64,000 bases of DNA from a virus: positions 124,001 through 188,000 of IMG/VR virus record IMGVR_UViG_3300024239_000016; one strand, 5' to 3'. Shown here piece after piece: positions 14,084 through 46,416 of this stretch (positions are counted from its first letter, which is position 1; the number at the start of each line of letters is the position of its first letter). The notes under the pieces are model-generated. The model searched no databases. It was not told where the DNA came from and saw nothing but the letters and a program-made list of their open reading frames with translations. A program made the translations under genes and the position numbers.

Positions 14084-14101
14084 CTATATTACAGTAGTGT
14101 T
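14084..14101 (+). promoter_or_regulatory. Candidate promoter, 18-nt repeat copy 1
   Basis: CTATATTACAGTAGTGTT occurs here and identically at 46399-46416. Both copies follow an operon-end hairpin and an A/T-rich stretch and precede a rightward gene. An exact 18-nt match in non-coding DNA at two equivalent places is unlikely by chance, and a phage polymerase promoter is the simplest reading. Confidence 0.55.
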
Positions 14102-14133
14102 TAGTGTAGTTAAACTTATCCAGGAGAAAGAAA

Positions 14134-14523
14134 ATGACAGATAGCAACATGATTGCATTCATTATCCGTAATGACAAAAAACAACTACTCACCTTGTCTA
14201 CCAAGGAGACGAGATATGGCAAGCGAGTACTTCTCCTGCCTTGTTTCTTCTACGATCATACGGAAGAGGTTATGCTGGCCTGCCGTAAGTGCTGCGAAGA
14301 GCTACTCGGAATAAAGCTGCTGACCACAAATGAATTTGGGGGATGTGGTTTCCCTGGAATGGGCGAAGAAACACAACTCATCGAGGTAACAGCTTATAGC
14401 GGTGACCTGGAGTTAAAAGAGTCAGCTATCTTCAACAGCATGGTGTGGCTAGATGTGGGTAAGGTTCCTGATAAATTCATCACAGGACCGGAGGTTATGG
14501 CTGTATCGATGCTGCTAGATTAA
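14134..14523 (+). CDS. Nudix-like fold protein, probably degenerate
   Basis: 129 aa, starting after CAGGAGAAAGAAA. The layout LLLPCFFYDHTEEVMLACRK followed by CCEELLGI resembles the Nudix box region (GG...GE...A..REL.EE.GI), with the following strand and TAYSGDLELKES...MVWLD like the Nudix C-terminal half. The glycines and most catalytic glutamates of the box are missing, so hydrolase activity is doubtful. It is the first gene after the 18-nt repeat promoter candidate. An alternative is an unrelated alpha/beta protein. Confidence 0.45.
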   Translation: MTDSNMIAFIIRNDKKQLLTLSTKETRYGKRVLLLPCFFYDHTEEVMLACRKCCEELLGIKLLTTNEFGGCGFPGMGEETQLIEVTAYSGDLELKESAIFNSMVWLDVGKVPDKFITGPEVMAVSMLLD

Positions 14524-14551
14524 TAGCAGTCCTTAACGTATGGAGAAAACC

Positions 14552-15742
14552 ATGTCATCGAAAGTTAAATCCGAATTTGAGTTGGTTAGTGTCGTCAGGA
14601 GAGCAGACGGCACTGGCCGCTACACCATCGGTTGGGTAGAACCCGATCCATCGAAAGATACTGATGTCGCCAAAAAAATAATCCCTATGATTGACATCAA
14701 TTTTAAGATGGATTCAATCGAATCATCTGGAGATGGTGTTTTAGTAAGATGGCAAGCTGACCTCTTAAAAGTCACGCTAATTGATTTCTTGAACGCTCGT
14801 TTTCCAAGCGGCCTCTTTAACAATCAGCCGGTATCAGTAAGACCTATGGTGGTTGATCCGAAGATGTCTCGGGCCGATTATTCTTTCGCCAGCGTTATGC
14901 CGATAATTAATTCTGAGAAAATTGTCCTCGGCCCTATGGGGTCGAGTCAGGATGCCGCTGAGCCAAAGACTGTAATGCAGCTATGTGCCGGGTATGTGAA
15001 GGAACAAAAGCGTATTCCTTCTACTTATGTCGAAGCCGAAGCACTGTTGGAGAAAATGATTGGTTCTTTCTCCAACAATAAACCCCAGGCTGAACTAAAG
15101 GAAGCATCCGACGTGTCGGTACCTAACAAATCGGATGGAATGGCTGATTATGATTTCGCTGGCTATAATGGGTTAGTTAGGCTCAATCAAATACTTGAAA
15201 GTGAGCCGCCCTATAGTCAGCTCTTCAGCATACCAACGAACTCCATTAATGGACTTGTGTCGCCGGATAAAGTCCCGCAGATCGAAGACAGATCTGATTT
15301 TTTAATCAATGAATCAAGGACGTCAAAAGACTCAGCTGCCATGGACCTAACGGATGCATCATTGCCTGAGCGACTTGAGCTTTTCGATCATCGCATCCCT
15401 CTGACTAAGAGGATGCAGAAAATCAAATCTCGATTTGGCTCATGGGAACGAGTATCCTTAAACGACAATGCGCCATCCGGTGCTCAGGATAAGACACCAT
15501 CTTTTGCATATATTTGCGGCGATGATGCTCTTCAGTTTCTGATTACAGATCACCCTGCGCAATTTGCCAAAGTTCGGCAGCACATGATCTTGATGTTTTC
15601 ATTTAGTACATACGAGGAGTTCAAACTCGAATGTTTCAATAGCAAACGCGGCTGCGATAATGGCATGGCGTTTGAAGGCCGTCCCAACGATAACGGTCTT
15701 CTCATAATGCAGCTGATGAAAGAATCCGGCATTGATTTTTAA
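14552..15742 (+). CDS. Hypothetical protein, 396 aa
   Basis: The start is ATG 14552 behind TGGAGAAAACC; an upstream ATG at 14540 overlaps the ribosome site. The soluble product has an N-terminal beta-rich domain (FELVSVVRRADGTGRYTIGW...), a central low-complexity acidic linker, and a C-terminal domain with GSWERVSLND and YICGDDALQFLI. No recognised family. It is the last gene of the rightward unit before a convergent junction. Confidence 0.7.
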   Translation: MSSKVKSEFELVSVVRRADGTGRYTIGWVEPDPSKDTDVAKKIIPMIDINFKMDSIESSGDGVLVRWQADLLKVTLIDFLNARFPSGLFNNQPVSVRPMVVDPKMSRADYSFASVMPIINSEKIVLGPMGSSQDAAEPKTVMQLCAGYVKEQKRIPSTYVEAEALLEKMIGSFSNNKPQAELKEASDVSVPNKSDGMADYDFAGYNGLVRLNQILESEPPYSQLFSIPTNSINGLVSPDKVPQIEDRSDFLINESRTSKDSAAMDLTDASLPERLELFDHRIPLTKRMQKIKSRFGSWERVSLNDNAPSGAQDKTPSFAYICGDDALQFLITDHPAQFAKVRQHMILMFSFSTYEEFKLECFNSKRGCDNGMAFEGRPNDNGLLIMQLMKESGIDF

Positions 15743-15841
15743 TCTCTGAATCCAGACACAGACGCTATCATGCTTAGTAAAAAAGAATGCACGTGAAGAA
15801 GCTTTCACTGGGTGCGGGTTCCCACTGCCGGCGAATGGGAA
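15743..15841 (+). ncRNA. Possible structured RNA or 3' UTR
   Basis: About 100 nt without a convincing gene. It contains GTGAAGAAGCTTTCAC (short hairpin, about 15793-15808) and TGGGTGCGGGTTCCCA (hairpin, about 15809-15824), and it runs into a U-tract terminator. It could be the 3' UTR of the 396-aa gene or a small RNA. A tRNA was considered and rejected. Confidence 0.25.
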
Positions 15842-15880
15842 AAGAAGTACCACCTTTCGGGGTGGTTCTTTTTTTTTTAG
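15842..15880 (+). terminator. Rho-independent terminator
   Basis: The stem around CCACC / GGTGG is extended by AAGAA / TTCTT, followed by about 10 T. Confidence 0.8.
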
Positions 15881-15886
15881 GTCATA

Positions 15887-15917
15887 GTACATCACCGCCC
15901 TAAGGGCGGTGATGTAC
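15887..15917. terminator. Long perfect hairpin at a convergent junction
   Basis: 14-bp perfect stem GTACATCACCGCCC / GGGCGGTGATGTAC, loop TAA. It is the second element of a tandem pair, between convergent genes ending at 15742 (+) and 15937 (-). Confidence 0.7.
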
Positions 15918-15936
15918 GTTTTCTTTCTTTTCAGTT

Positions 15937-16434
15937 TTAATTTTTTACCAACTTAAACGGCGATTGGGCATCTAACAAAACGCTCACACTACATCTATGA
16001 AAGATAGAGAGTCTGACTGGAGCGTTACCGCGCATCAGTTGAATTAGCTCATTGTTCGGCGTTAGTGTGATGTTGTTTGGTGAGGCAGCTCTGTTTCTAT
16101 CCAGTCCACCGATACCAACCAGAATGCTCGCTTGGTTGATAAAAACTTCATCGCCAAAATAAGACACGCTCTTGACGGTTTTTAACCACTCGGTTTTAAC
16201 GCAAGAGACTACGTCGTTAATCTCAGACAGAAGATTAACGAAAGACGAGCCATACGACCAATCCAATGTTTTTAGATGGTCGTTTACTTGCTGACAAGTC
16301 ATATCGATGAGCTCAACTGCTACTGCTTTTTGTGCTTTTGGTTCGTCTTCGGCGATGAGCGCTCGCCGAATATTATCGATCTCGAACTGACTGGGTTCCT
16401 TCTTACCAAACGAATAGATATCGGCTGAATGCAT
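15937..16434 (-). CDS. Hypothetical protein, 165 aa
   Basis: It lies 9 nt downstream of the DNA polymerase fragment on the same strand and is surely co-transcribed. I looked for the missing polymerase motifs B and C here and found none. The protein is mixed alpha/beta (MHSADIYSFGKKEPSQFEID...) with no known signature. It could be a polymerase accessory protein by position only. Confidence 0.7.
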   Translation of the reverse strand: MHSADIYSFGKKEPSQFEIDNIRRALIAEDEPKAQKAVAVELIDMTCQQVNDHLKTLDWSYGSSFVNLLSEINDVVSCVKTEWLKTVKSVSYFGDEVFINQASILVGIGGLDRNRAASPNNITLTPNNELIQLMRGNAPVRLSIFHRCSVSVLLDAQSPFKLVKN

Positions 16435-16443
16435 AGCAACTCC

Positions 16444-18165
16444 TTAATAAACAACACCTTCATTATTTGGATGTAATTGATGGAAGAGATTTAACATCTC
16501 TGAGTGCGATGCCCCTTTCATCATCATACGCACATACTGACTGGCGTTAGTGCTACCACCAGTCAGGTTCATGTTTTGTGCCCGGAACACATATTCATCA
16601 ACACCAATAATAGTAATTAACTCTTTCTTGGTGGTCTCTTTACTCTGGTTTAGCGCAATGCCGTTATTCGGATACGCTCCAGTTACGTCTAGGTCGCCAG
16701 TAGAGCGCCGCATTCTGGTGCGGATGTGTGGCGCATCCGCGAATATACATAAGCCGTTGTCGACAATCTGTACAGCATTAAGAGCGACAATCCAATCTGT
16801 ATTTGAAAGAGTTTTGGTATCTAACTCGTCTGACATCTGATCAGAGGTAGTTCCCATCACTTTGCCGTATGGTTTAATAAAGTCATCCAAGAACTCAACG
16901 ATCTTTCTTGGCATTTTGTTAAACACATCAAAGCCCGAATCAACTGATTGCGCCGCAACTGACAGCTGCATATCTAACGTCGCTTCGTCGAACAACTCAA
17001 CAGAAATACAGTCCCATAAGTTGTAGACAGCATATTCGATCATGTGGTACCGCTGCATGAAAGCATGCCACTCTTCTTTTTCCAAGCCATCCGCTTCAGT
17101 GAATTTCATCTTGGAGAGCTTTAGAACCTTACCCAACATATGGTCTAGCGAGTAAGACTCTTCCTCCTGAGCACCAATGCGTATCTGCTTGTACAAACAC
17201 ATTGGATCCATAACCCAAAATGAAGCAGGCGCATATACCGAGTGCCATTGCCTGTGGTAGTCGAGAGATGATTTCTTACCGCTATCGCTAACCTTTTGGG
17301 CTTGACCTTGAGCAAACTTGAAGAATTTATATTCCTGAGGAACCGAAGGATCACTGAAAATATCTTTGCACTCTACCCCATATTTCGCGCAACACTCCAT
17401 TACTTTAGGAATGTCGTATGACATATTCCAGATGGCAAAGAAATCAGGCTTCCATTCATGCGCGCGGGCAAAGATAATTTTAATTACTTCAAAATCATTC
17501 TTTACTACCTTGAACTCAACATTCAGATTACGACTAGCAACAATCGGACCTAGCTTTTCATCTTTCAAAATGTATTTGTCTAAGGCTTTGCGAAAATTAA
17601 CCTCAGGATTTGGAAAGCCTACTAAAGCTTCTTCTGTGATGGCGATAATCGCTTTATTCTTCATTGTTAGCGATGCCATCAAGATTTTACGATGTCCGTG
17701 AACCACATCAGCTTCGATATCGAATACAGCTACCGAATATGGTGTGATGTGATTAGGGTATCTCTTGCGGTACATCCGCTTAATTAGCGTAGTGGATGGA
17801 ATGTCAGCGGCATAGACATAAGGTGTTCTGACTGCTTGCTTCAGACTGTTTCTTGGATTTGGGTACTCACCGAGCGCTTTAGCAATAGCTGGCACTAATT
17901 CAAACTGACGACATTTAAACCTGTCGCACTTTGTGATGTCTTCCCATTCTTTACGCTGCTTGTATTCTTTCCGATATCCTGGTTTTGTGACGAAAAAAGG
18001 ACGTTTAATATCGTCCTTTGACACCAATCGAGGAATTACACGGCCATCTTTGGTATGTATGATTTCCTTGATGTAGTGTCGATCAGGCATTCCTCGTTCA
18101 GGCGGTGGAACGTAGTATACAAACCTACACTCCCTTCCGGCTATTTCTTCTAATGGAATTTCCAC
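16444..18165 (-). CDS. Family-B DNA polymerase, exonuclease domain plus start of palm (motif A only)
   Basis: 573 aa, GTG start with GAGG 4 nt upstream. 3'-5' exonuclease motifs are complete: Exo I FDIEAD (D149/E151), Exo II IWNMSYDIP (D251), Exo III YNLWDC (Y381/D385). Polymerase motif A is visible as DLDVTGAYPN (D493), equivalent to DxxSLYP. The protein then ends about 80 residues later, before room for motif B (KxxxNSxYG) or motif C (YxDTD). It therefore looks like the N-terminal part of a split or truncated polymerase. The rest is not in the adjacent gene and may lie elsewhere in the genome. Confidence 0.8.
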   Translation of the reverse strand: MEIPLEEIAGRECRFVYYVPPPERGMPDRHYIKEIIHTKDGRVIPRLVSKDDIKRPFFVTKPGYRKEYKQRKEWEDITKCDRFKCRQFELVPAIAKALGEYPNPRNSLKQAVRTPYVYAADIPSTTLIKRMYRKRYPNHITPYSVAVFDIEADVVHGHRKILMASLTMKNKAIIAITEEALVGFPNPEVNFRKALDKYILKDEKLGPIVASRNLNVEFKVVKNDFEVIKIIFARAHEWKPDFFAIWNMSYDIPKVMECCAKYGVECKDIFSDPSVPQEYKFFKFAQGQAQKVSDSGKKSSLDYHRQWHSVYAPASFWVMDPMCLYKQIRIGAQEEESYSLDHMLGKVLKLSKMKFTEADGLEKEEWHAFMQRYHMIEYAVYNLWDCISVELFDEATLDMQLSVAAQSVDSGFDVFNKMPRKIVEFLDDFIKPYGKVMGTTSDQMSDELDTKTLSNTDWIVALNAVQIVDNGLCIFADAPHIRTRMRRSTGDLDVTGAYPNNGIALNQSKETTKKELITIIGVDEYVFRAQNMNLTGGSTNASQYVRMMMKGASHSEMLNLFHQLHPNNEGVVY

Positions 18166-18186
18166 ACTTACCTCGCGGACAAGACA

Positions 18187-19434
18187 ATGAATAAATTATG
18201 GTTTAGTCCTGAGAGCATTAGCTTTCAGAAGAATGAAAAATTCAAAATTGAGCTGACAGAATGTATCGAGCAGCTACAGACCGCTGATGTTCGTAACGGT
18301 CGTAATCATGAAATTCTGCAAAGGTTACAAAAAGTTATTGAGGATCACTCTGGAATTTCAGTAAACATAATTCAGAAAGAAGATGATAATGGCATCCGTA
18401 TCGGAATGCCGATGATGACCAAGAATCATGTACTTTTTGACGAAATGCGACAGACTGTGGCGAGTACTACCGATTTAGTCAGGACTCTCGGGAACGATAA
18501 GTTTATCAAGGGTTTTGCTGATCCGTCAACAGGACGCATTGGCGGTGCATTCAGCAAGATAATGGTGGATCTCCATCTACCTAACAAAGATGTATTTACA
18601 AGCGGCCTAACAGCTGGAATGATCGCGGCCGTGATTCTGCACGAACTGGGTCACATCTGGTGCTACTACTTCTACTTCGGTGCTGTTGTTAGAACTAGCA
18701 GCGTGTTCGAGTACCTGCAACGTAATCTGACCGATGAACTCGATGAGCGTGAGCGTATTTTTGTAATCACCACTGCTGGCCGCGCAGCTGGTATGCCCGA
18801 TAGTGATATCAAGGCGGCTACCAATATCAAATCCAAAGATGTGGTTCAGATGGTGCTTGTCTCAAATACGGCCGATACCATCCGTTCTCAGCTAGGAGCT
18901 AATATTTACGATCACACTACGTGGGAATCGTTAGCTGACGAATACGCTGTTCGGATGGGGGCCGGAGTCGAACTAGCCACAGCTTTAGATATGATCTATC
19001 GCCGCGGTCTCTCTAGATCGCACCGTGGGTGGACTCTTTATCTCTTCTTTGAAGTGATCAAGTTGATTCTGATTGCTATTCCTGGTCTAAATTTCATGGG
19101 AGTTATGTTGATCCTCATGGATGCCAGTTCCGCACATCACGATGATCCCGAAGCGCGCTTTAAACGCTTCCGTGACCAGTTTGTACAAGGACTGAAACAA
19201 CCGGATATCACGCCCGATGAGAGGAAGAGATTTCTCGAGAACATCGATAGGATGAATGCGCTTCTTGCCGAGGTAGAGGATAAGCGTCAGTTCCTCTCAG
19301 TCATTGTGGAAGCAATTGTTCCTAGCTTACGCCGGCGTAAGTCTACGTTAGACAAAATTCGTATCCTCGAAGGGCTAGCCACCAACGAGCTCTTTATTCT
19401 TTCTCAACAAATCAAATCGGATCTACAGTCCTAA
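18187..19434 (+). CDS. M48-like zinc metallopeptidase, membrane-associated
   Basis: 415 aa. The zincin motif HELGH (H152, E153, H156) is followed by a third-ligand motif WESLADEYAVRMG (E248, D252), the arrangement of M48 (HtpX/Ste24) peptidases. Residues about 275-305 (LYLFFEVIKLILIAIPGLNFMGVMLILMD) are hydrophobic, probably one hairpin or membrane segment. A following HHDDPEARFKRFRD recalls the SxHPxxxxRI tail of M48 enzymes. The gene is divergent from the polymerase gene with only 21 nt between the start codons. It could process virion proteins or attack host membrane proteins; no evidence separates these. Confidence 0.7.
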   Translation: MNKLWFSPESISFQKNEKFKIELTECIEQLQTADVRNGRNHEILQRLQKVIEDHSGISVNIIQKEDDNGIRIGMPMMTKNHVLFDEMRQTVASTTDLVRTLGNDKFIKGFADPSTGRIGGAFSKIMVDLHLPNKDVFTSGLTAGMIAAVILHELGHIWCYYFYFGAVVRTSSVFEYLQRNLTDELDERERIFVITTAGRAAGMPDSDIKAATNIKSKDVVQMVLVSNTADTIRSQLGANIYDHTTWESLADEYAVRMGAGVELATALDMIYRRGLSRSHRGWTLYLFFEVIKLILIAIPGLNFMGVMLILMDASSAHHDDPEARFKRFRDQFVQGLKQPDITPDERKRFLENIDRMNALLAEVEDKRQFLSVIVEAIVPSLRRRKSTLDKIRILEGLATNELFILSQQIKSDLQS

Positions 19435-19443
19435 GGAAACAAC

Positions 19444-19944
19444 ATGAAATTTCTTCCCTTTTATCTGAGCCTTGCCGAGCAAAACCAACTGGTCAGTTCT
19501 GTTGGTATTACCAACACTGGTATTGGCGAGCGTCGCAAGATCATTGGTTTCGCTCTCGGTGAAGCCATTGGTACCTACTTGCCAATTGAGTTCACCTCGG
19601 AACAAGAGGCCGATTTGAAGTTCTCGAAAGAGTACCGTACTTCCCTCGAAGATGCCATCGCCATGTTCAACGAGTTCATGATTCTGGAGCGCAACTGCGC
19701 TCTCGATATCGCCAAAGGCGTCTACATGTATCGCACCGTGATGGCGAATACGGATGCTTTGCAGGCCAACTGGGCTGGTCTCCACGCGACCATTCGGAAC
19801 TTCATTCCGGAAGATGACATGGCATTCTACGAAAAGAATGCCTGCGCAATCAGTAACTTCAGCCGAAGTTTCCGCGCTCTTTTCAATGAGCGGCTTAAGG
19901 AAATAGCAGAGCGGGCTGCTAAGGATCTGAACTCCGGGTACTAA
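19444..19944 (+). CDS. Hypothetical protein, 166 aa
   Basis: It starts 9 nt after the peptidase gene with CTAAGGAAACAAC as ribosome site and is probably in the same operon. The product is helical (MKFLPFYLSLAEQNQLVSSV...), with GC-richer codon use than the peptidase gene, which suggests moderate to high expression. No recognised motif. Confidence 0.75.
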   Translation: MKFLPFYLSLAEQNQLVSSVGITNTGIGERRKIIGFALGEAIGTYLPIEFTSEQEADLKFSKEYRTSLEDAIAMFNEFMILERNCALDIAKGVYMYRTVMANTDALQANWAGLHATIRNFIPEDDMAFYEKNACAISNFSRSFRALFNERLKEIAERAAKDLNSGY

Positions 19945-19955
19945 TCAACTAACGA

Positions 19956-19987
19956 ATAAATGGCACCTAGTGGTGCCATTTATTTAC
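19956..19987 (+). terminator. Hairpin terminator
   Basis: 12-bp perfect stem ATAAATGGCACC / GGTGCCATTTAT with loop TAGT, followed by TTACTTTTTG. Confidence 0.7.
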
Positions 19988-20007
19988 TTTTTGTTTCAGA
20001 GGTGGAT

Positions 20008-22116
20008 ATGTCATTAAACGATGATTTTTTAACAGACGAAGAGCGCGCTGCTCGTACTGACAAAGCGCAAGAAGAGCTTTTTGCAAACGAGTTTGGCACA
20101 CCGCCAATTTCGATCGGGAATATGGTAGGCGATGACTCCAGTCCCAGTAAGTTCTTTGTCAATCCGAATCCAAACGAGATTCCAGTTCTGCTGGAAGATC
20201 TAAAGCTGATCGAAAGCCTGGAATCAGCGCTGGATGATCTCAACGATCTGCGGATTACAATTGTTCAGAATGGTGGCATTGATCGCGCTATGGCAGCTAG
20301 CATGGAGTCGTTCGTGCCCGAACTGCTGGCAAGACGACCGCTGAACTCTTTCAGCTTACATCAGTCGATTACAAACTACCAGATTAGTCTGGAAGAGATC
20401 GATAAGAAACGGCTTGGCATTTATGCAGGTCTCACTGCTGCGCTTATGGCCATTGTCTGGAAGATCTACAAATGGCTATTCGGTAAGAAAGAAGGTAGCA
20501 GCAGCGACGCTACATCTTCGGTAGCTAGCGGCGAAGCCGTAGAAGCTCGTACCGAGATGGTGGTTGATGCAGCTGAGACATCGCCTATTGTTGAACAAGC
20601 AACGGCTGTCATCGCTGAGCGTCATCGCGAAAATAGCGAGGTCACCAAAGCTCGTCGAAACCTGGACGCTGAGATCAAGCAACTCCTTGACAATTCGACT
20701 GAAGGAAAGACAATTGGTTTCCTTGGGAAGAGTTCTGAAATTCAGGAGATCTATCGCTTGATTATTACAAGCTCCTCATGGAACTATCAGCAGATCGTTC
20801 ATCGCCTGGAATTGCTGCTTGATCATATCAAAGCGGCTAGCGATGCGATTGGTAATCCTAGCTCTCCAGCATTCACTGCTGTCTTGGACGCAATGCGTGC
20901 AACCGGTGATTACCGCAGTCAGGTTCGTAGTCCTGAAGACCGTCATCTGGTAACTGGCGGCGGCGGGGTTGGTCTGAATGCGCTGGTTCCGGCGATCGCC
21001 TATCGCAATCCGTCTATGCAAGTTGGGAAAAATGTCCCGGGATATGTGTTGCGCACTGGTATCATGTTCCGTCAGAAGTTTATTGACATTGGTTCTATCT
21101 CCTATTTCTTCAAAGACCAATCTGGTCTGCGCGGAATGATAGAGGCCCATGACGTTTACAGTCGCGACATGGGACAGATCTATGAAGATATCAAGCGTCT
21201 TGCTGAATCTTCTATCGTGACCGATTACATCAAGGCCAGTCGTGAAATTGAGCGGGAGCTCAAAGATACTCTTCCCGCTATCGAAAAAGCTACCGAAGCT
21301 GCCGATGCGTACATGAAGAAGTTGCCGAAGAAAACAAATGGCAAGATGGCGGATACCACTCCAGGTATCTACAATCGAGACTCTGCTTTCCGCGATGACA
21401 TGGCTGGGACGACGCATGTGGATTTCGATGGGGATAAAGTAGTTCCAGATGTAAACCCCGAGACCCAAGAACCCCCCGTTCACGGTGAAGGTACAGCTGG
21501 TGTTCAGCCGGATGGTTCGGTTAAAGAGCCTCGCGTTCCCTTGGACAGGAGCGGTAGTGGCGATAGTACGCGCTACAACGCTCAATACGCAAATCACGAA
21601 CTGATCTTTCGCTTCCTGGAACATGAGCTGCGCGGTAAAGTTCGTGAAGTTACTGATTGGGGCGCTGTGCTTGGTTTTATCGCTCGCGATATCTCCATCA
21701 TCAACTTACGCCTTACGTCCAAATTGATGACTTCCCAACAGGCTAGCCTTGCTGAAATTCGTCGGTCGCTCACTGGCAAAGACGATAAGGGCGAACAGAA
21801 AGACTTCGTTGCTGAGATGGATGCGAAGCTTCTCGGTATTCTGGAAATGATTATCCAGAAAACAAAGAATGCTAACGTCACCATGGCAGACAAGCCTCGC
21901 AAGCTGTGGTCCATTCAAGGTATGCTTGATAAGATCGTACGGCCGGTTAGTCAGTTCCTTGGACTTAGCAAGGATAATCATGAGAAGTTCAATGACGCTT
22001 TTGCGACATATACCAAAGCGCTGCATGAGATGGCTGATGTCTTCGAAAAGGAATTCGATTCGGAAACAGCTAACCGCTTGCGTGCAATGGCTAAATCAAC
22101 AACGTTTGTTGAATAA
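20008..22116 (+). CDS. Large membrane-anchored or internal virion protein, 702 aa
   Basis: The start is ATG 20008 (CAGAGGTGGAT); the upstream frame runs through the terminator. It has an acidic N-terminus, then MAASMESF around residue 100, a candidate S-x-E prohead-protease site like those in the inner-head proteins. A hydrophobic segment at about 137-157 (IYAGLTAALMAIVWKIYKWL) is followed by a long charged, helical C-terminal region with coiled-coil character. A virion-internal role is likely from the SxE pattern and neighbourhood, but the family is not recognised. Confidence 0.6.
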   Translation: MSLNDDFLTDEERAARTDKAQEELFANEFGTPPISIGNMVGDDSSPSKFFVNPNPNEIPVLLEDLKLIESLESALDDLNDLRITIVQNGGIDRAMAASMESFVPELLARRPLNSFSLHQSITNYQISLEEIDKKRLGIYAGLTAALMAIVWKIYKWLFGKKEGSSSDATSSVASGEAVEARTEMVVDAAETSPIVEQATAVIAERHRENSEVTKARRNLDAEIKQLLDNSTEGKTIGFLGKSSEIQEIYRLIITSSSWNYQQIVHRLELLLDHIKAASDAIGNPSSPAFTAVLDAMRATGDYRSQVRSPEDRHLVTGGGGVGLNALVPAIAYRNPSMQVGKNVPGYVLRTGIMFRQKFIDIGSISYFFKDQSGLRGMIEAHDVYSRDMGQIYEDIKRLAESSIVTDYIKASREIERELKDTLPAIEKATEAADAYMKKLPKKTNGKMADTTPGIYNRDSAFRDDMAGTTHVDFDGDKVVPDVNPETQEPPVHGEGTAGVQPDGSVKEPRVPLDRSGSGDSTRYNAQYANHELIFRFLEHELRGKVREVTDWGAVLGFIARDISIINLRLTSKLMTSQQASLAEIRRSLTGKDDKGEQKDFVAEMDAKLLGILEMIIQKTKNANVTMADKPRKLWSIQGMLDKIVRPVSQFLGLSKDNHEKFNDAFATYTKALHEMADVFEKEFDSETANRLRAMAKSTTFVE

Positions 22117-22162: not shown

Positions 22163-25105
22163 TTATGATTTATGACTAATCCAGTTAAACGTAATGTCGT
22201 CAACCACAGTCGTAGTGCTATCGGCTAACGCAATCAGTTTTTGCCGAACGCTACACCGATTGTGCTGGTTGATGATTGTGACCGCACTGTAATTTGCAGT
22301 ACCTCCCAATCCCTTCACGCCGACATCGATAACATCATTGCCAAATACACGGCGTAATTCTTCGATGATAGCTGAGATTGAGATTTGAGTCTTCGTTAAC
22401 TCAGACTTCAACACAGAGGACGCTTTATTGACCAGTGTATTCTTGAGGGCATCGTTGTTATTGACCGCTTCAGTTACATAAAGATCAATAACCAAAGCTT
22501 GCTCGGCATGGATGTTTGCACGACGGCTATCATCCACAATTACTTCGATCAGGCCAATGAGTACCTTTGGATGGAAGAAGACACTAGTGTTATCCAGCGT
22601 TTTCATTCCGATCTCGGACAGCTCACTAACAATCCAGGAAGCGAGCGCATCGTGCGCTTTCTTGCGATATGTCTGGATAGCAGGATCGGTAGCGAAATAA
22701 TAGAGCCCATCCAACATGAGGATATCGATGTATCTCGAAATAGCTCGCTCCGATTCAATAACTGGTTGGCCATTCTCGATAACAAGATCGCCTGCCATGT
22801 GCGCGTACACTACATCGCCATCTTCCGTCATCTGAGGATCGCCAGCGCGATGCAGGATCTCATTATAGACGACCTCACCATCAATGATTCTGAAGATCTG
22901 GTTGGTCTCAGGATCTCTGGCGTACTGATTCTCGGTATAACGTTTTGGGATACTGACTGTATGGCGTTTGTATGCCATCTCGTCAACATATGAGCGAGCT
23001 CTCTTCCACAATGCATCGAGTGGCTTGCCGATCGTGTAATCCAACTGCTCATGATTGACAGTGTAAACCACCTCTGGCAGAATAGCACGACCAATAACAC
23101 TATCGATATTTGAGTACGAGTACTGAGGGCCAACCTGAGCAGTAGTGACAAAGAAAATATCGAAAACCGCATCGAGATCCAGTGCCACATTTAGAGGGTC
23201 CTCGGTATACATGTAGAAATCATTAAAAATCATACTGTGATTTCTGTCGATGTCGAAATTTGTCTTGAGCTTGAACTCGAAGATTCGCTCGCCGTCGCTC
23301 TCTACCCTGATCAACTCTGCGTTGATATACGCGCGATCTCGCTGATTGTGTGGCCGAATACCAAGCTGACAAATGAGCTCACTGTCGTTGAGACCTGTGC
23401 GGACAGTCTCTGATGAAACTGTACGGATTAGCAACGAATACCCGTAATCTGTTTTAACGCAATCCGCTACTTGAACGCCAACTTGCAAAAGCGAAGAAGC
23501 ATTTTCTGCAATGAATAGCTTTGCGTTGAAGACCGGATCAACGAGATAATACGCTCGTAGATCAAAATCCGAAGTAGTGGCATCGAGAACATAATGGAAC
23601 GGAGTGTATTTGTACTCTTTAGAACTGAGCTCAACTACCTTTTGCTCAACGCTCAGTTCTTTCAGATGCCTCAGTTCATCCGCCGTCAAATGACGGTAGT
23701 CTCCATTGTCGTAGACGAAAAACGCCTCAGGAGTGATAGTGACTCGATACCCATTATCAATAATACCTGATTTATCCACCAATGTACTCAGTCTGGTAGA
23801 TACAACACTCATGTTAGCCGCAATCCCACTACTGGCACGCGGAGTAATCGTCGATGACAGCAGCGTTGAATAATCGCTAACCGATGGAGCGATTAGCTCA
23901 CGCGTCGCTAAGAAAACGCGATCTGTAACCACGTCAATGCCCTTGATGATCGTATAACCGGCATCAACTAACTCTTGGTTTATCTGCGCTGGAGTGATCG
24001 GAATTTGTGGCTTACCAATTGAGTTGGTAAAGATACGTTCACGAATTTCGTCAACAGTCAGTGGTTTCCGACCGCCAGTAGTAATCGAAGATGATGCACA
24101 AGCCACAGATCTGAACGTATTCAGCGGAGCCGAGTAGACCGTATTATCGGAAGGACTCACAGCAAACCACTTGGCTACGAATTCAGTAATCGGGTACTCG
24201 GATAGGTTGATCGAGATATCGCCTTTTGTGTAATAGACATCAGCACGCACAGTTCCGCTAATCGAACCATTCTGTGTAAAGATTTGCGGCAGGCTAACTC
24301 TCACAAAGCCATCATAAGGCTCGACCACCGCACACGGCGTAGCCAAGTCCACAACGCGGTTGGATAGAACCACAGGGAGTTCTTTCTCACCTGATGAGTC
24401 GCTAACGAACACTCGCGCTGTGTAGTAATTATCAGGGAACTGGATATCCAGCTTAAACTGCTGAGATGGACTGATGGATCCTGTTTTGCTGATGAACGCA
24501 AACTGATCAACTTCCAACTGCATAGTCAGCCAGCGGCCATTCACATTGTCGTATACGAACTCGCCCCAAGGAATTGCGTTTGCCGAGAGCTCTTTGAGAG
24601 GCGACTGCTTGGATGTATCGTACACAACTGTGAGTCCGCCATGCTCCATCCGACGGATCTCGACTGGATACTGCAGACTAAACTGAATATCCGCTACAGT
24701 GAAAGTGGTATTGCGCGGAATCACTAGTTTATGGATATTCAAAACAGGATCTCTGACCATGGCAGCTTGCAGCTCTGTCATGGCTAAACTTAACTGGATG
24801 GTGATCCTGGATGGTTGAGAGAAGATCTTTGAAATATCTCGATCGGAAATATGGGAGTAGAGCTCCATCATCGTGGTGCTAGCGCGCTCGTACTGATTAC
24901 GATGAGCTACTTCCATCCGAGCAGCCGCCGCAGAGACCATTGCTGCATTTGCGCCCAACAGAGCAGCAAAAGGATTACTGGTATCCGGTAAGGTAAGATC
25001 GCCATTAGAGATCTCTTCTAGAGCTGTAATAGCTTGTCTCTGGATACTTGCTGGACTGTGGATGTAAATACCAACATTATCAATTAGTTTATCAAAAACT
25101 GACAT
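22163..25105 (-). CDS. Large virion protein, possible baseplate wedge
   Basis: 980 aa, one of the largest products here. Residues about 128-150 (VIPRNTTFTVADIQFSLQYP) resemble the start of the conserved domain of T4 gp6 / phage J baseplate wedge proteins, where a fixed IPxGTxF phrase precedes beta-strands. The C-terminus (residues about 870-980) has an assembly-like module with VIDLYVTEAVNNNDALKNTL and DVIDVGVKGLGG. Beta-rich throughout with no signal peptide. The baseplate assignment is a family-level guess. Confidence 0.5.
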   Translation of the reverse strand: MSVFDKLIDNVGIYIHSPASIQRQAITALEEISNGDLTLPDTSNPFAALLGANAAMVSAAAARMEVAHRNQYERASTTMMELYSHISDRDISKIFSQPSRITIQLSLAMTELQAAMVRDPVLNIHKLVIPRNTTFTVADIQFSLQYPVEIRRMEHGGLTVVYDTSKQSPLKELSANAIPWGEFVYDNVNGRWLTMQLEVDQFAFISKTGSISPSQQFKLDIQFPDNYYTARVFVSDSSGEKELPVVLSNRVVDLATPCAVVEPYDGFVRVSLPQIFTQNGSISGTVRADVYYTKGDISINLSEYPITEFVAKWFAVSPSDNTVYSAPLNTFRSVACASSSITTGGRKPLTVDEIRERIFTNSIGKPQIPITPAQINQELVDAGYTIIKGIDVVTDRVFLATRELIAPSVSDYSTLLSSTITPRASSGIAANMSVVSTRLSTLVDKSGIIDNGYRVTITPEAFFVYDNGDYRHLTADELRHLKELSVEQKVVELSSKEYKYTPFHYVLDATTSDFDLRAYYLVDPVFNAKLFIAENASSLLQVGVQVADCVKTDYGYSLLIRTVSSETVRTGLNDSELICQLGIRPHNQRDRAYINAELIRVESDGERIFEFKLKTNFDIDRNHSMIFNDFYMYTEDPLNVALDLDAVFDIFFVTTAQVGPQYSYSNIDSVIGRAILPEVVYTVNHEQLDYTIGKPLDALWKRARSYVDEMAYKRHTVSIPKRYTENQYARDPETNQIFRIIDGEVVYNEILHRAGDPQMTEDGDVVYAHMAGDLVIENGQPVIESERAISRYIDILMLDGLYYFATDPAIQTYRKKAHDALASWIVSELSEIGMKTLDNTSVFFHPKVLIGLIEVIVDDSRRANIHAEQALVIDLYVTEAVNNNDALKNTLVNKASSVLKSELTKTQISISAIIEELRRVFGNDVIDVGVKGLGGTANYSAVTIINQHNRCSVRQKLIALADSTTTVVDDITFNWISHKS

Positions 25106-38120: not shown

Positions 38121-38182
38121 TCGTGTGTTAAAGAAGATTATAGATATATATTTCTTTTGTGGTGTCAATTGAAGGAGAAATC

Positions 38183-39864: not shown

Positions 39865-39882
39865 AGTACTGAAGGAGAAAAC

Positions 39883-40410: not shown

Positions 40411-40422
40411 GCTCTACAGTAC

Positions 40423-40460
40423 AAAAGAACCCGCCTCTAATCGGGTTCTTTTTTTTTTCA
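40423..40460 (+). terminator. Rho-independent terminator
   Basis: 11-bp stem AAAAGAACCCG / CGGGTTCTTTT with 8-nt loop and a T-run. Confidence 0.85.
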
Positions 40461-40475
40461 CTTAAGGGAGGTTTC

Positions 40476-40874
40476 ATGAATACAGTTCTTTACCGCAAGC
40501 GCGCTCCTATGGACGGCTTCAATACTCGCTTCAATGCTGGACTGAGGCTGGCATCGTTGCTTCGGGCATCTATCGATTTGGATCCAAAGAAAGTCAAACC
40601 AAGTTATAAGCGCAAGCTTTTCTTAGACGCTTATATCGGGATGTGTTTCCACCATCACCGCTGGGATAGTGGAAAGTCCTACAAAATCGACATTACTCTT
40701 TTTGCCGAGAAGGTATGGACTGTGACGTGCAATGGCAACATGTGCGAAATTGTACTGACTACAGCCGATGGCCAGGTCATTCAACAATTCGATCATCCAT
40801 CGCTTGTTACTGAAGTGTTTGATGGTATTTTCAAGGAATATGTCGCTAATGCCTTTGATTTGGTTGAGGTATAA
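40476..40874 (+). CDS. Hypothetical protein, 132 aa
   Basis: Start after TTAAGGGAGGTTTC. A basic N-terminus and compact alpha/beta body (MNTVLYRKRAPMDGFNTRFN...). The last gene of the long rightward block 26.3-40.9 kb. No known motif. Confidence 0.7.
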   Translation: MNTVLYRKRAPMDGFNTRFNAGLRLASLLRASIDLDPKKVKPSYKRKLFLDAYIGMCFHHHRWDSGKSYKIDITLFAEKVWTVTCNGNMCEIVLTTADGQVIQQFDHPSLVTEVFDGIFKEYVANAFDLVEV

Positions 40875-40892
40875 AAAAAACATCAGCATAAA

Positions 40893-40920
40893 TCCACTCT
40901 CCCCTCACGGGGAGAGTGGA
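40893..40920. terminator. Bidirectional hairpin at a convergent junction
   Basis: 12-bp perfect stem TCCACTCTCCCC / GGGGAGAGTGGA, loop TCAC, between genes ending at 40874 (+) and 40965 (-). Confidence 0.75.
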
Positions 40921-40964
40921 GATAGCTAGACGTTATTCCTAACTACTAGCCGAAGCAGGCCAGA

Positions 40965-41471
40965 TCAGGTCTGTTCTTCTTCGATGCCGTCACGGGCATT
41001 GGTGTAGATGGTGACCAGGTCCATCTCGGTAGCGTCGCCGATACCGATGGTCGTCCACACGTTTTGCTTCTGCTCGTCGGTCAGGACCTGAACTGCGTCG
41101 AAACGAACGCGATTGTCCAGGGCCAGGAGCATGGCCGAGCCGGCGGTCTGGTCAGCGGCGATGTAGTCAGCGATTTCCTTCAGCGTGTCGAAGGCAGTCG
41201 GTGCATTGTCGACCAGGCCGCTGATGGCGGCGGCGACCAGTTGTTCGATCTTGGTGGAGCTGTAGGTCGAGGTACCGGCAGCGGCAGCGTCGTTGATGAT
41301 GTTGGCAGCGAACTGTTGAGCCGAGGCACGGACTTCGTTCAGGGCCAGAACCAGGTTCGACTTTTCGGTCGTGGTCAGCTGAGCCGGATCGCCGAGCTTG
41401 GTCTTCAGGTCACCGACGTCGGCGCCGACGAGAGCGGCAAAGGCGTTCAGGATTTGGGCAAGTGTTTGCAT
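40965..41471 (-). CDS. Short fibre-type protein sharing a module with 59890-60951
   Basis: 168 aa from ATG 41471 (AAGGAATGCCCAA). It shares TYSSTKIEQLVAAAISGL, then APTAFDTLKEIADYIAADQT and NRVRFD, with the N-terminal 160 residues of the 353-aa protein near 60 kb (YSSNKI, APEAFDTLKEMSDYIAADQT, NRLRFD). This phrase is common at the N-terminus of phage tail fibre and collar proteins. Here it ends with a short acidic tail instead of a receptor domain. Codon use is GC-rich and host-optimised, so it is abundant. A virion surface or fibre role is likely. Confidence 0.6.
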   Translation of the reverse strand: MQTLAQILNAFAALVGADVGDLKTKLGDPAQLTTTEKSNLVLALNEVRASAQQFAANIINDAAAAGTSTYSSTKIEQLVAAAISGLVDNAPTAFDTLKEIADYIAADQTAGSAMLLALDNRVRFDAVQVLTDEQKQNVWTTIGIGDATEMDLVTIYTNARDGIEEEQT

Positions 41472-41593
41472 TTGGGCATTCCTTGAGAGGTGGTTTGAAA
41501 ATCGCCACATGGCGACTAACTAGAAAACGAACAAGCGAAGAAGCTATATTCGCCATACTATTCAAACGCACCTCTCTGTACATAGATTAAATT

Positions 41594-43147
41594 TTAACCT
41601 AAAACAAAATCAAGCATATCTTCAGTAGCTCCTTCTTTCTCAGAGCTCTTTAGATTTGGCTTACCGGGCGCAGAGTGTGATTTATCTTCAGCGTTGATAT
41701 CGTCGAGGATAACCCCCTTTTTCAGGAATGGAAGAGCTGTGTAAAGATCCCTAGGATCGGTCTGGCCATTCAAACGATGCTTACCACGCTGCACTGTTAA
41801 ATACGAAACACCGTTGATTGTTTCGATATGAACAAATAGCTCGATATCTACTTCTTGGTCTACTGTTTTACATCCATCGTAATAACCTTTGCCAGGCAGT
41901 CCTTTAACGAAGTTATCTCGGCCGTCACGGATTAGCTGTTTGGCTTCGGTGGAAAGTTGGTGTGGGGTGATCATTACAATCCCTCGGGGATTGGTGAAAT
42001 TACGAACTACTCTATACAGGGCTCTGATTTCCGAACCAGTAGGTCCGTTCTGTTTGAGCGAATCAGCCGGTAGCTGCTGTAGATAATCAAGCATAAGGAG
42101 CTTGATCTCATAACCTTGAGCCTCAAGCTTAAGGAGAAGGCCAATTAGATCTCGATGAGTCCATCTGGAGGGATCCACGCGATACATCTTGACCTGGAAG
42201 CCACCACGTTGCATCTTCTCCTGTACATATCTTGCCTTTTCTTGAGCAGAGACACCGGAGTAATCCTCAACGATGCCAGACTCATTCTGACGATATGACT
42301 TGTACAGAAAATCAAAGTTCATTGCTAGGCTATCTTCGAATGAGATGCGCACTAGCAATGGTTTCTTTGTTTTATCCCTTAGGAACGGAACGTTGTAATC
42401 AGCTATCTGACGAAAGAGCGTCAGGCTAAATCCTGTTTTATATTGGTGAGGTAGAGCTCCGACGACTACGTTATCGCCTGGTCTGAAGTAGCCGCGTACC
42501 ATTCGGTTAATGGCCTGGTATCCTACTTTTAAACCGGCCTCGCCAAGTTCTGTTGTTGCTACTTCTTCGAACACAGTGGTGATGGAATCTTGATCGCCGA
42601 TGTCGATCGATCCGACGATAGCTGGATCTTGCTCATCCTCACCAACGGTGATAAACGGCTCAAGCTCATCCGCGATTTCGCGGGCCCATGCTCGGAAGTC
42701 AGTAATTTCAGATCGCGAAAAGCTCAACTGAGCTGCGGCTTTGCGTAAACGTTCTTGTAATTTACGCTCAGCTTGATAGTCTTTCAGATACTTGGCTGTG
42801 CGAATACATGCAACAAGAACTTCGTTATCGAGTAGCTCAAATCCGATTGAACTCAGGAAGACATCAAAAAGAGATTTGTCCTGATTACAATCCAGTTTTA
42901 ACCGCTGCAATAATTCGTCTTTTGTGTAAATAGTTGGCGCTGATTTATCGGCCATCATTGTAGCTGTTCGCTTCAGCGATACAATGGCTGATGTTTTATC
43001 GTTTGTTCCGACTGCTAACTCTGGTAGCTTAATCGACTTTATTAAATCGCGAGCTAGATCCCGATAGTTGGTAGTTACCGTTGCATCCAGTTTAGATGAA
43101 TGAAACAATAGGGTAATGATGTTTACTAATAGATAGCGTTCATCCAT
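41594..43147 (-). CDS. DnaB-like replicative helicase
   Basis: 517 aa. Residues about 205-450 form a RecA-like ATPase of the DnaB family. Motif H1 is GALPHQYKTGFS (230-241), a P-loop in which the usual Gly before Lys is Tyr. H2/Walker B is IKLLMLDYLQQLP, and H3/H4 is GIVMITPHQLSTEAKQLIRD. The N-terminal 200 residues are helical, as in the primase-interacting domain. The C-terminus is acidic and disordered. It would unwind DNA at the phage fork. It sits alone with the fibre-type gene on the minus strand. Confidence 0.75.
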   Translation of the reverse strand: MDERYLLVNIITLLFHSSKLDATVTTNYRDLARDLIKSIKLPELAVGTNDKTSAIVSLKRTATMMADKSAPTIYTKDELLQRLKLDCNQDKSLFDVFLSSIGFELLDNEVLVACIRTAKYLKDYQAERKLQERLRKAAAQLSFSRSEITDFRAWAREIADELEPFITVGEDEQDPAIVGSIDIGDQDSITTVFEEVATTELGEAGLKVGYQAINRMVRGYFRPGDNVVVGALPHQYKTGFSLTLFRQIADYNVPFLRDKTKKPLLVRISFEDSLAMNFDFLYKSYRQNESGIVEDYSGVSAQEKARYVQEKMQRGGFQVKMYRVDPSRWTHRDLIGLLLKLEAQGYEIKLLMLDYLQQLPADSLKQNGPTGSEIRALYRVVRNFTNPRGIVMITPHQLSTEAKQLIRDGRDNFVKGLPGKGYYDGCKTVDQEVDIELFVHIETINGVSYLTVQRGKHRLNGQTDPRDLYTALPFLKKGVILDDINAEDKSHSAPGKPNLKSSEKEGATEDMLDFVLG

Positions 43148-43287
43148 TTGGTTTAGTTCCTCTGGATAACTTAATTAACTCTGGTCAAGTGATTGTCCGC
43201 ATGTAATTAAAAATAGCAGATGAGTGAATTTATGTTAAATTATAATGACCATTACTAATTAGTAAACAATTTTCTATGGGGGACTCC
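43148..43287. promoter_or_regulatory. Divergent AT-rich promoter region
   Basis: About 140 bp between divergent start codons, very AT-rich (ATGTTAAATTATAATG, CTAATTAGTAAAC). No hairpin. Presumed promoters for the helicase (-) and for the capsid operon (+). Confidence 0.35.
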
Positions 43288-44037
43288 ATGAGTTCAAATC
43301 CTGAACAACTGAAAGTGATTTTGCTGCCGCTTTCTATTCGCAAAACTCTTTTTCGTCATCGCCTGATTCTCGAAGATATTCTCTCTTTGGAAAAAATCAA
43401 GGACGTTCTCCCTCTGAGCGCTGTTGTTGACTTGGGGCTGGCACAAAATAGCATCTATCAGATGGTGCCGTTCAATTGCCCAACCGCTCGACTGCTAGGA
43501 ACGACGCCGGTGGATCCATTACCGGTCGGCTATCATGTGTCTCCCGAAGCGCCATCCTGCGCCAAAGATGACGTTAATTGCGGCGGTGATATGGCTATGC
43601 CAATCTACGGTAGTGTCTTTCAGCTCTATTCGTTGTTCAGCCATTATGCCGAAACGAGGCTAGCAGCTGCTCGTGAGTTCTTCCAACAGAAGGTAACTCC
43701 TGCTAGCAATCGGATTCAATCTGACCAGGAATCCATGAAGATGTTCTATCGTCGTATATTCCGAAAGGGCAGCGATGAATCTTATGGGTCAGTTACGTGT
43801 GCCTCTTTTGGGGACTCACTACCTGAATCGCAAGCTTTTGAAATAAACTTTGTTCGTGAGAACTTTGCAATCATTACCTATGACGAAATGAAATTCCCTG
43901 ATGAAGAGAATTTCCGTCGGCTGGTAGCTTCGTTGCTAGAGGCAAAACATCGTTATAGCAACTTTGAAATCATGGCTAAGGAGATGGGTGATCTACTCTC
44001 ATTCCACCTGCGCTGCCTCCATCAGAAACCTATCTGA
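43288..44037 (+). CDS. Hypothetical protein upstream of capsid gene, 249 aa
   Basis: The start is ATG 43288 behind GGGGGA; ATG 43276 has no ribosome site. A soluble product with several Cys (NCPTARLL, PSCAKDDVNCGG, VTCASFGD) and basic helical patches. It lies 32 nt before the capsid gene, so a role in head assembly is possible. No recognised family. Confidence 0.65.
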   Translation: MSSNPEQLKVILLPLSIRKTLFRHRLILEDILSLEKIKDVLPLSAVVDLGLAQNSIYQMVPFNCPTARLLGTTPVDPLPVGYHVSPEAPSCAKDDVNCGGDMAMPIYGSVFQLYSLFSHYAETRLAAAREFFQQKVTPASNRIQSDQESMKMFYRRIFRKGSDESYGSVTCASFGDSLPESQAFEINFVRENFAIITYDEMKFPDEENFRRLVASLLEAKHRYSNFEIMAKEMGDLLSFHLRCLHQKPI

Positions 44038-44069
44038 AACTCCACTCAACTCCTTTCAAGGAAACAAAC

Positions 44070-46304
44070 ATGACATCTCCGTTCCTCAAGAAGCGCCAGA
44101 AGGGTTCAACGGCTCTGGCCAGCAAAATGTCCGAGCAACTGTCCGCAGTTCATAGCAAACTGAATGGCGGCCTGGCGGCCACTCTGGGCGTCGTCGGCAA
44201 GTCCGTCTACTCTCCGGAAAGTATGGACCTCAGCGATGCCGCTGATGTTGGCCATGCTCTCGACGAAGTCAGCTCGATCATCGGTTCCGTTTTCTCGTTC
44301 GAAGAAGCCAAGCTCGGCAAATCCGGTGACATGGCGACCGCCGAATACCAGTTCGGCCGTGGCGAATTCGCTGACAATGCTGCTCGTCTGGCTGCCGCTC
44401 TGGGTATGTCCCCGCGCCAGGCTGCTCATCGTGACCTGTCCCTGGAATCAATGGTCGCCGCTCCGCGTCGCATCGTGATCGCCCAACCTCCTGGTGTTGG
44501 TGATTTCTTCACCAAGCTGCCGGAAGACATCAACGTTGGCCTCGAAGCCTACGACGAAAAGAACAACAAGGACGCCGTCGCTTTCTCGGTGGTCTGGAAT
44601 GCCAACTTCCGTCAATCGCCCTGGGCCGAAGCCTTCTACCCGCTGTACCTGCTGACGCCGGATCAACTCGGCCTGACCTTCACGGTTCCGGTCGTTCAGG
44701 TTCAGCCGGAACTGCGTCGTGATACGTCTGGCGATCCGACGAATTTCAATCGTCGCAACGTCATGCGCGCCCTGGTTGATCCGAGCATCATCGAAGATGA
44801 CGCCACCGACATCATCCCGGTCGTTCGTCCGAGCTCGGCCGACAAGTTCCCCGATGCTTCCCTGATCGCTCCGACGTCGGTTGTCGTTGCTGGTGAAACC
44901 GTTCAAACCGCTCCGCTGCTGTTCGGCAAGACCATTGGTCTGCTGAGCATTGGTCAGACCGAAGCACTGCTGGCCAGCGGCGCTGCCGATACCAGCGATG
45001 CTGTCGATCCGTCCGTCAAGCTCGAAACCGTCTACGCCCAAATCGGCAACAAGGCTGTTCGCTGGGACGTCTCCGGTATGTCTTACACCGACTTCAACTA
45101 CTCGGTGCAGGACGAATACCGTAAGATGGTCGTCAATACGTCCTTCAAGAACCTGCTGATCAGCAAGGACACGAAGTCTACCGATGGCGCCAATCTGCCG
45201 GGTCTGGACGTCATCTATACCGACGGTCTGGAAGTTCGTGTTCAGATGGATGTCAATGGCTGGATCGTTCTGGAATCTGGCGATGTCCGCCTGTCTTCCG
45301 TCGAACTCCTGGTCACTGGCATCACTGATCCCGATGGCAATCGTCTGGCTCCGACCGATCCGAAGTATGTCGCAATCGCTGATGTACTCGAGAACCCGGC
45401 TCAAGCCAAGCCGCTGAGCTATCGTCTGCGTGCTCGTCGTACCAACAGCAACATGCGTCAGCGTGGCCAGCTGCTGAACACCAACTTCTACACCCAGCTG
45501 CACGGTGTTCCGCGCCGCGCTCCGATTACGGTGGCCCGTCCGCAGAGCCAAAGTGATCAGAACGATGGTGCTGACATGGCAGCTCTGCTGCAGACCACCT
45601 ACGCTCGTGCCACGAACGCTGCCCATGCGGAATTCTTCCGCCACGCCGCTTTCCTGGAACAGTTCGTCGGTAGCCAAGGCAGCCACATCGGCGAAATGCC
45701 GGAAATCCTGGGTGTCTCGCGTCTGTGCGGCGTTCAGCCGTTCTTCGAGCGTCTGGAACTGGACATCGAGAAGGTCGTTCAGATCACCAGCACCGAAGAC
45801 AAGACTCGTGCCGTCATGGAAGCGATCTGCTACACGCTGCGCGATCAAGTCTACCGTGGTTGGACCAAGTCCGAGTTCATGGTTGCTCTGTCCGCCATGC
45901 GTGGCCCTGGCAGCCCGAACCCGACGGTCATCGTTGGTGTCCCGCCGTACCTGCGCAACTATCTCCAGATCTTCGGCGATATCCGCATCTTCGGTGAGAA
46001 CTTCGAATACCGCATCGTCGAATCGCTGAATCCGCTGCACAAGGATACGATCGTCTGGTCGTTCGGCTTCTTCGACGGCGGTGATGGTCAGCCGAATCCG
46101 CTGCACTTCGGTCTCTGCGCCATGCGTCCGGAAGTTACGGCCGTCCTGTCGCTGCCGCGTAACGGCAGCTACTCGAAGGAACTGACGGTTGTTCCGTCTT
46201 TCCTGCACATCTCCAACCTGCCGGTTGTTGGTATGGTCAAGGTCATCGGCCTGGAAGCTCTGGCTCTCACCTCCCTGGCCGTTCCGGTCAAGATGATTCC
46301 GTAA
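44070..46304 (+). CDS. Major capsid protein (phiKZ gp120-like)
   Basis: 744 aa, close to phiKZ gp120 as I recall it (about 747). It has a long N-terminal pro-region with helical, acidic character (residues 1-126) ending in RDLSLESM, where S124-L125-E126 is a candidate prohead-protease cleavage site. The HK97-type core follows, with VVWNANFRQSPWAEAFYPLY and the beta-rich C-terminus. It shows the strongest host-codon bias of the window (CTG, AAG, GTC), expected for the most abundant virion protein. Ribosome site TCAAGGAAACAAAC. Long antisense frames in this gene are by-products of that bias. Confidence 0.85.
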   Translation: MTSPFLKKRQKGSTALASKMSEQLSAVHSKLNGGLAATLGVVGKSVYSPESMDLSDAADVGHALDEVSSIIGSVFSFEEAKLGKSGDMATAEYQFGRGEFADNAARLAAALGMSPRQAAHRDLSLESMVAAPRRIVIAQPPGVGDFFTKLPEDINVGLEAYDEKNNKDAVAFSVVWNANFRQSPWAEAFYPLYLLTPDQLGLTFTVPVVQVQPELRRDTSGDPTNFNRRNVMRALVDPSIIEDDATDIIPVVRPSSADKFPDASLIAPTSVVVAGETVQTAPLLFGKTIGLLSIGQTEALLASGAADTSDAVDPSVKLETVYAQIGNKAVRWDVSGMSYTDFNYSVQDEYRKMVVNTSFKNLLISKDTKSTDGANLPGLDVIYTDGLEVRVQMDVNGWIVLESGDVRLSSVELLVTGITDPDGNRLAPTDPKYVAIADVLENPAQAKPLSYRLRARRTNSNMRQRGQLLNTNFYTQLHGVPRRAPITVARPQSQSDQNDGADMAALLQTTYARATNAAHAEFFRHAAFLEQFVGSQGSHIGEMPEILGVSRLCGVQPFFERLELDIEKVVQITSTEDKTRAVMEAICYTLRDQVYRGWTKSEFMVALSAMRGPGSPNPTVIVGVPPYLRNYLQIFGDIRIFGENFEYRIVESLNPLHKDTIVWSFGFFDGGDGQPNPLHFGLCAMRPEVTAVLSLPRNGSYSKELTVVPSFLHISNLPVVGMVKVIGLEALALTSLAVPVKMIP

Positions 46305-46326
46305 CGGGATTTGTCAGACTAAAGAT

Positions 46327-46359
46327 TACTCCTGCCCTACGGGGCAGGAGTAGTTTTAT
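46327..46359 (+). terminator. Terminator after capsid gene, UNCG tetraloop
   Basis: 11-bp perfect stem TACTCCTGCCC / GGGCAGGAGTA closed by TACG (UACG type in RNA), followed by GTTTTATT. Confidence 0.8.
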
Positions 46360-46398
46360 TATGCCGCTTATTTTTAAAAAGTTAAAAAATATATAAAA

Positions 46399-46416
46399 CT
46401 ATATTACAGTAGTGTT
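46399..46416 (+). promoter_or_regulatory. Candidate promoter, 18-nt repeat copy 2
   Basis: CTATATTACAGTAGTGTT, identical to 14084-14101, preceded by an A/T-rich AAAATATATAAAA. It lies 157 nt upstream of the 358-aa gene. Confidence 0.55.

Follow-up and report, generated by a model that had tools for sequence, protein, structure and literature searches.

What role may be played by an exact 18-nt repeat that stands twice in non-coding DNA of an uncultivated giant phage? The repeat, CTATATTACAGTAGTGTT, was registered at two positions (Table 1) of the stretch analysed here (hereafter the window: 64 kb, bases 124001–188000 of a 194,227-bp record), exactly as it had been described in the sequence-only reading that drew attention to it. 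Search of the 64-kb window with up to 3 mismatches left these two copies as the sole matches, and a third copy of the 16-mer TATATTACAGTAGTGT was not found in the 194,227-bp record. The record beyond the window was covered by pattern searches and by the stretches surrounding the sites. The surroundings of the repeat were also described correctly: a hairpin and an A/T tract precede both copies and a rightward gene follows. The hairpins, though strong, have no T-run on the + strand, which the terminator scan requires and found at neither of them.

Judged by its gene content, the phage is of phiKZ type, with predicted virion and non-virion multisubunit RNA polymerases. The window encodes homologues of phiKZ gp71-73, gp74, gp80 and gp123, of the major capsid protein, DNA polymerase and a DnaB-like helicase, while homologues of gp54 (nuclear shell), gp55, gp68, gp178 and gp180 are located elsewhere in the record. 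The virion polymerase set is represented by homologues of gp80, gp178 and gp180, these three having been examined. Polymerase subunits are approximately 30–35% identical to those of the nearest named phages, and no DNA-level matches to named phages were found. The gp71-73 homologue appears here as one uninterrupted gene versus the split annotation in phiKZ, and a GTG-started ORF at window positions 150–1127 looks like the mere end of this longer gene, which starts outside the window. In such a genome both copies of the repeat very probably serve as early promoters for the virion RNA polymerase (vRNAP) of the phage. The earlier proposal of a promoter class for one of the multisubunit polymerases of the phage is upheld by sites in the record and in relatives, and it can be narrowed to the virion enzyme.

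Table 1. Features of the window related to the two copies of the repeat (window coordinates unless the record is named)
Feature	Position	Strand	Remarks
Copy 1 of the repeat	14084..14101	+	core TATATTAC 14085-14092, 6-nt spacer, predicted start G14099
Copy 2 of the repeat	46399..46416	+	core TATATTAC 46400-46407, predicted start G46414; record 170400
Hairpin ending the gp79-gp80-gp81 operon	14022..14059	+	17-bp stem, z -6.6, no canonical T-run
First gene of the copy 1 unit	14134..14523	+	129 aa, relatives not found
Second gene of the copy 1 unit	14540..15742	+	400 aa, relatives not found
Terminator-like hairpin (with T-run) at the end of the copy 1 unit	15849..15866	+	
Hairpin ending the major capsid gene	46322..46357	+	z -5.0; followed by ATTATGCCGC
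Gene in gp122 position, first in the copy 2 unit	46573..47649	+	assigned by synteny
phiKZ gp123 homologue, N-terminal beta-like subunit of non-virion RNA polymerase	47656..49263	+	
Gene in gp124 position, third in the copy 2 unit	49277..51364	+	
Two-way terminator-like hairpin at the end of the copy 2 unit	51405..51434	+	
phiKZ gp71-73 homologue, C-terminal part (non-virion RNA polymerase)	1..1127	+	gene start at record 122980
phiKZ gp74 homologue (non-virion RNA polymerase)	1124..3124	+	
phiKZ gp80 homologue (virion RNA polymerase)	11786..13123	+	
Strong terminator-like hairpin with T-run	10890..10915	+	separates the 9004 unit from the gp79-80-81 operon
Third predicted early promoter, TATATTACTTTATTG	9004..9018	+	exact site before ORF 9051-9626
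Weak candidate early promoter, TATATTTCTTTTGTG	38147..38161	+	one mismatch, matrix 11.8 bits
Weak candidate early promoter, CATATTGCATACATG	5340..5354	+	matrix 10.5 bits

The core of the repeat followed by six arbitrary nucleotides and G (TATATTAC-6N-G) occurs exactly at 12 sites in the 194-kb record, all of them on the + strand and none on the − strand. G belonged to the search pattern, T in front of it did not, and T precedes G (5N-T-G) in all 12 cases. Ten sites are located outside any ORF of at least 100 aa, the two others being overlapped by ORFs of 115–120 aa, and an ORF starts 36–73 nt past the first base of the core in 10 out of 12. The complete GTG ending is confined to three sites, i.e. 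the two copies and record position 78192; in the others it is another base plus TG. The scoring matrix was trained on the nine sites outside the window only, and the copies occupied ranks 1 and 2 among approximately 128,000 window positions on both strands (27.3 and 26.9 bits), followed by the sites at 9004 (18.4 bits), 38147 and 5340. The matrix composed of all 12 sites revealed conserved T and A positions 4–18 nt upstream of the core, in agreement with the upstream part of the motifs published for OBP and 201phi2-1.

Divergent relatives of the copies in the window can, according to their sequences, be seen in the site at 9004 and, weakly, in those at 38147 and 5340. The sequence-only reading had sought them among TCTATA-like elements, but these are at background (27 found versus 27.5 expected). 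When one mismatch was allowed in TATATTAC-6N-G, 31 matches were obtained in the record on the + strand and 12 on the − strand, the reversed control yielding 14 and 10, respectively. Since such loose matching is close to its control, the one-mismatch sites are taken as candidates only, including those that lie in gaps and keep the TG spacing, all on the + strand (record positions 22188, 47247, 59302, 68564, 75235, 109463 and 162147, the last being window 38147). The core taken without G showed no significant excess in the window alone (3 versus 1.1 expected). Copy 2 is overlapped by a weaker, out-of-register matrix match, TATAAAACTATATTA at 46392 (window 46392–46406, 8.6 bits). There is also a longer exact repeat of 29 nt, AATCAATTAAAATAAAAACCTATATTACA, which was found at record positions 117412–117440 and 122922–122950, in the predicted promoter regions of the gp68 and gp71-73 homologues.

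Does the complete identity of the two copies require an explanation of its own? Shuffled versions of the window contained on average 0.03 matches to CTATATTACAGTAGTGTT and two matches in none of them, so the initial impression that the repeat is hard to obtain by chance was justified with respect to random sequence. It does not extend to full identity inside the class: in a simulation, all 8 extra letters of the 18-mer were common to two of the 12 class sites with a chance of approximately 2%. Given a promoter class of 12 sites, identity of all 18 letters is therefore only a mild peculiarity, and no special cause is needed.

Copy 2 is flanked by the major capsid gene on one side and by the gp122-gp123 operon on the other, and the order capsid, gap, gp122, gp123 is common to FLC9, SURPRISE13, LucasX, DT01, Eowyn, Ea54, PhiPA3 and phiKZ. 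At the position of copy 2 phiKZ has TATATTACAGTAATG (120657, 51 nt before gp121), and either TATATTAC or TATATTAT was found at the orthologous gap in PhiPA3, FLC9, Eowyn and Ea54. Single-protein search with gp123 in viral contigs gave no relatives, while the gp123 alignment search did, and 73 distinct uncultivated relatives were collected in this way. Within 2.6 kb upstream of gp123 in these 73 relatives the pattern TATATTA[CT]-6N-G was registered 16 times on the + strand, never on the − strand and never in the reversed control. Allowing one mismatch and requiring TG, we obtained 39 matches on the + strand and 6 on the − strand, with 4 and 1 in the reversed controls. Unsupervised expectation-maximisation applied to 70 gp122 upstream regions returned TTCAGacATA[TC]ATTA[CT] as the best motif, which reached at least 10 bits in about 60 of 70 relatives (in-sample scores). 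Over its first 147 nt the leader of copy 2 showed no more stable folding than shuffled sequences (z −0.18).

The same gap harbours one more conserved element, TTATGCCG(T/C)C, located at window positions 46358–46367 directly after the capsid-gene hairpin and found also in the capsid–gp122 gap of relatives. TATGCCG was detected in 76 relatives 53 times on the + strand and 3 times on the − strand, with approximately 7 expected, and came out as the second motif of the unsupervised search. TTATGCCGTC is present on both strands in seven of the eight genomes searched and absent from phiKZ; in some cases an early promoter follows it at a distance of about 33 nt (PhiPA3 13689/13722, 201phi2-1 115354/115387). 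In many phages the TTATGCCG(T/C)C element pairs with GCATA before the hairpin, and it may represent a terminator tail. It contains TATG, which is the phiKZ late-promoter motif.

For the two genes behind copy 1, single-protein searches in viral contigs revealed no relatives, and the 400-aa protein had no match in phages either. Folding of the copy 1 leader was no better than that of shuffled sequences. Among the early genes of AR9 unknown proteins are the usual case (76%, PMC5312081).

The placement of the sites relative to polymerase genes is asymmetric. Every non-virion polymerase gene found stands behind such an element, exact in the case of gp68, gp71-73/74 and gp123 and with one mismatch in the case of gp54-gp55. 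The gp68 homologue starts 36 nt past record site 117432; that of gp71-73 starts 38 nt past the first base of the core at record 122942 and is followed by gp74; gp55 is located behind the nuclear-shell gene (gp54), after the weaker one-mismatch site at record 109463. In the virion set examined, the 11 kb upstream of gp180 and of gp178 contain none of the listed sites, and the strong terminator-like hairpin at 10890–10915 separates gp80 from the site at 9004. In phiKZ the non-virion polymerase subunits are early products and the virion ones are middle products (PMC4666361). The motif, its strand bias, spacing, placement and conservation, as well as its association with non-virion polymerase genes, were all observed directly in the genomes analysed.

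By analogy with phiKZ one can assume that vRNAP would enter the cell together with the DNA and meet an element in which an A/T-rich stretch is followed by the core TATATTAC, six spacer nucleotides, the last of them T, and the start base G. From copy 1 it would transcribe rightward two genes of unknown function and from copy 2, also rightward, the gp122-gp123-gp124 unit. The latter would supply a subunit of the non-virion polymerase, which in turn would transcribe later genes, and such a scheme would match the phiKZ order of events, in which the incoming virion enzyme makes the non-virion one. Recognition by vRNAP, the start base G and the early timing are what we infer from the phiKZ literature. 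Since no phiKZ-type vRNAP had been purified as of the 2017 paper on AR9 (PMC5312081), the choice of this enzyme follows from timing and exclusion. Several features count against the assignment: the location of copy 1 is not conserved and the genes behind it lack relatives, the copy 2 leader between the predicted start and ATG is long (159 nt versus 35 nt for copy 1), and DT01 has no exact site.

The published data on early promoters are in line with this assignment. TATATTAC is the phiKZ early promoter consensus, and the early promoter predicted for 201phi2-1 is TTAWTAVAA_HYWTTTRARR_BTATATTACDWHDGTG (PMC7058600). For AR9 it was given as ...TATATTAT-(6N)-G+1, and in phiKZ and phiR1-37 the start lies 6 nt downstream of the element (PMC5312081). 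PhiKZ reportedly has 28 early promoters used by vRNAP (PMC13282480), and early operons of every such phage are described as preceded by a conserved A/T-rich motif of about 10 letters with its centre near −10 (PMC7598289). In whole named genomes the exact TATATTAC-6N-G pattern gave (+:−) 25:1 in phiKZ, 24:1 in 201phi2-1, 18:0 in PhiPA3 and in Eowyn, 7:0 in Ea54, 2:0 in LucasX, 0:9 in FLC9, 0:8 in SURPRISE13 and 0:0 in DT01, with 0–3 matches per strand in reversed controls. Judging by these strand counts, early promoters of each genome point one way. In the whole genome of DT01 no exact match was found, and TACATTAT stands in its capsid–gp122 gap instead. Thus, the search of other intergenic regions and relatives that the sequence-only reading had suggested brought the motif to light at the 12 sites of the record, in eight of the nine named phages searched and in most of the 70 uncultivated relatives. 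Taking this phage together with the eight named phages that have matches, 123 predicted early promoters are on the prevailing strand and 2 on the other, and many other genes in these genomes run opposite to them.

The feature is almost certainly a new instance of a promoter kind already known from phiKZ-like relatives, and both likeness and difference can be specified. With phiKZ it shares the core, G 7 nt after it, T usually preceding this G, one-strand placement and location before the nuclear-shell/gp55, gp68 and gp121-gp123 operons. Unlike phiKZ, in which the nearest exact site is 5.3 kb upstream, before gp68, this phage has its own site directly before gp71-73; and copy 1 has no counterpart there, as there is no exact phiKZ site between gp81 and gp82. 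Both copies fit the 201phi2-1 motif BTATATTACDWHDGTG at 15 of 16 positions and have a similarly A/T-rich upstream part, but at one spacer position they carry G where its consensus has A/T. OBP, EL and N1M2 share a TTTYARRYA-like upstream part and, together with AR9, an ATATTA-type core located some 10 nt upstream of the start, but differ in the core variants (ATATTAT, ACATTAT, TATATTAT), and AR9 is a member of the uracil-DNA branch.

Other interpretations of the repeat were also considered, and each of them fails at least one test. TATATT resembles TATAAT and might be taken for an ordinary −10 box of host sigma-70 promoters. This explanation is very improbable: neither copy has a −35-like hexamer, which would be expected 16–18 nt ahead of the −10 box, the consensus scan gives no sigma-70-type site there, and the invariant AC of TATATTAC and TG at a fixed distance in 12 of 12 sites would be left unexplained. 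Infection by phiKZ was, moreover, reported to be rifampicin-resistant (PMC4666361). It is hardly credible, too, that the copies are middle or late promoters of the non-virion polymerase, even though a full set of this enzyme is encoded by the phage and copy 2 follows a late capsid gene. Late promoters of phiKZ read TATG and start at G (PMC4666361), whereas the start region in both copies reads AGTG; in vitro, purified non-virion polymerase of phiKZ failed to transcribe from an early promoter (PMC4666361); and the sites precede the genes of the non-virion polymerase itself, which are needed before that enzyme exists.

Coincidence of 18 letters out of 18, rare even for two members of one class, could suggest a recent duplication with no role in transcription or a site to which some other phage protein binds. 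However, the flanks of the two copies differ beyond these letters, ten further sites share with them the core and TG but not the remaining letters, and phages that have diverged strongly still retain the core at one and the same orthologous position, which makes this explanation scarcely probable.

If the copies are early promoters of vRNAP, the class to which they belong outlines the predicted early regulon of a giant phage that is uncultivated and deeply diverged, and the two genes behind copy 1 become marked as likely first-expressed. Across the phiKZ-like family the predicted early promoter upstream of gp122-gp123 keeps its syntenic place, while the letters of its core drift (TATATTAC, TACATTAC, TACATTAT, TATATCAC, TATATTAT), and orthologous promoters collected over the whole family are a usable source of data for finding the promoter-reading subunit of vRNAP. 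It is possible, though rather doubtful at this stage, that this drift follows changes in the promoter-reading part of each virion polymerase. Were this the case, comparison of promoters with the polymerases of the same phages could point to the subunit by which early promoters are read.
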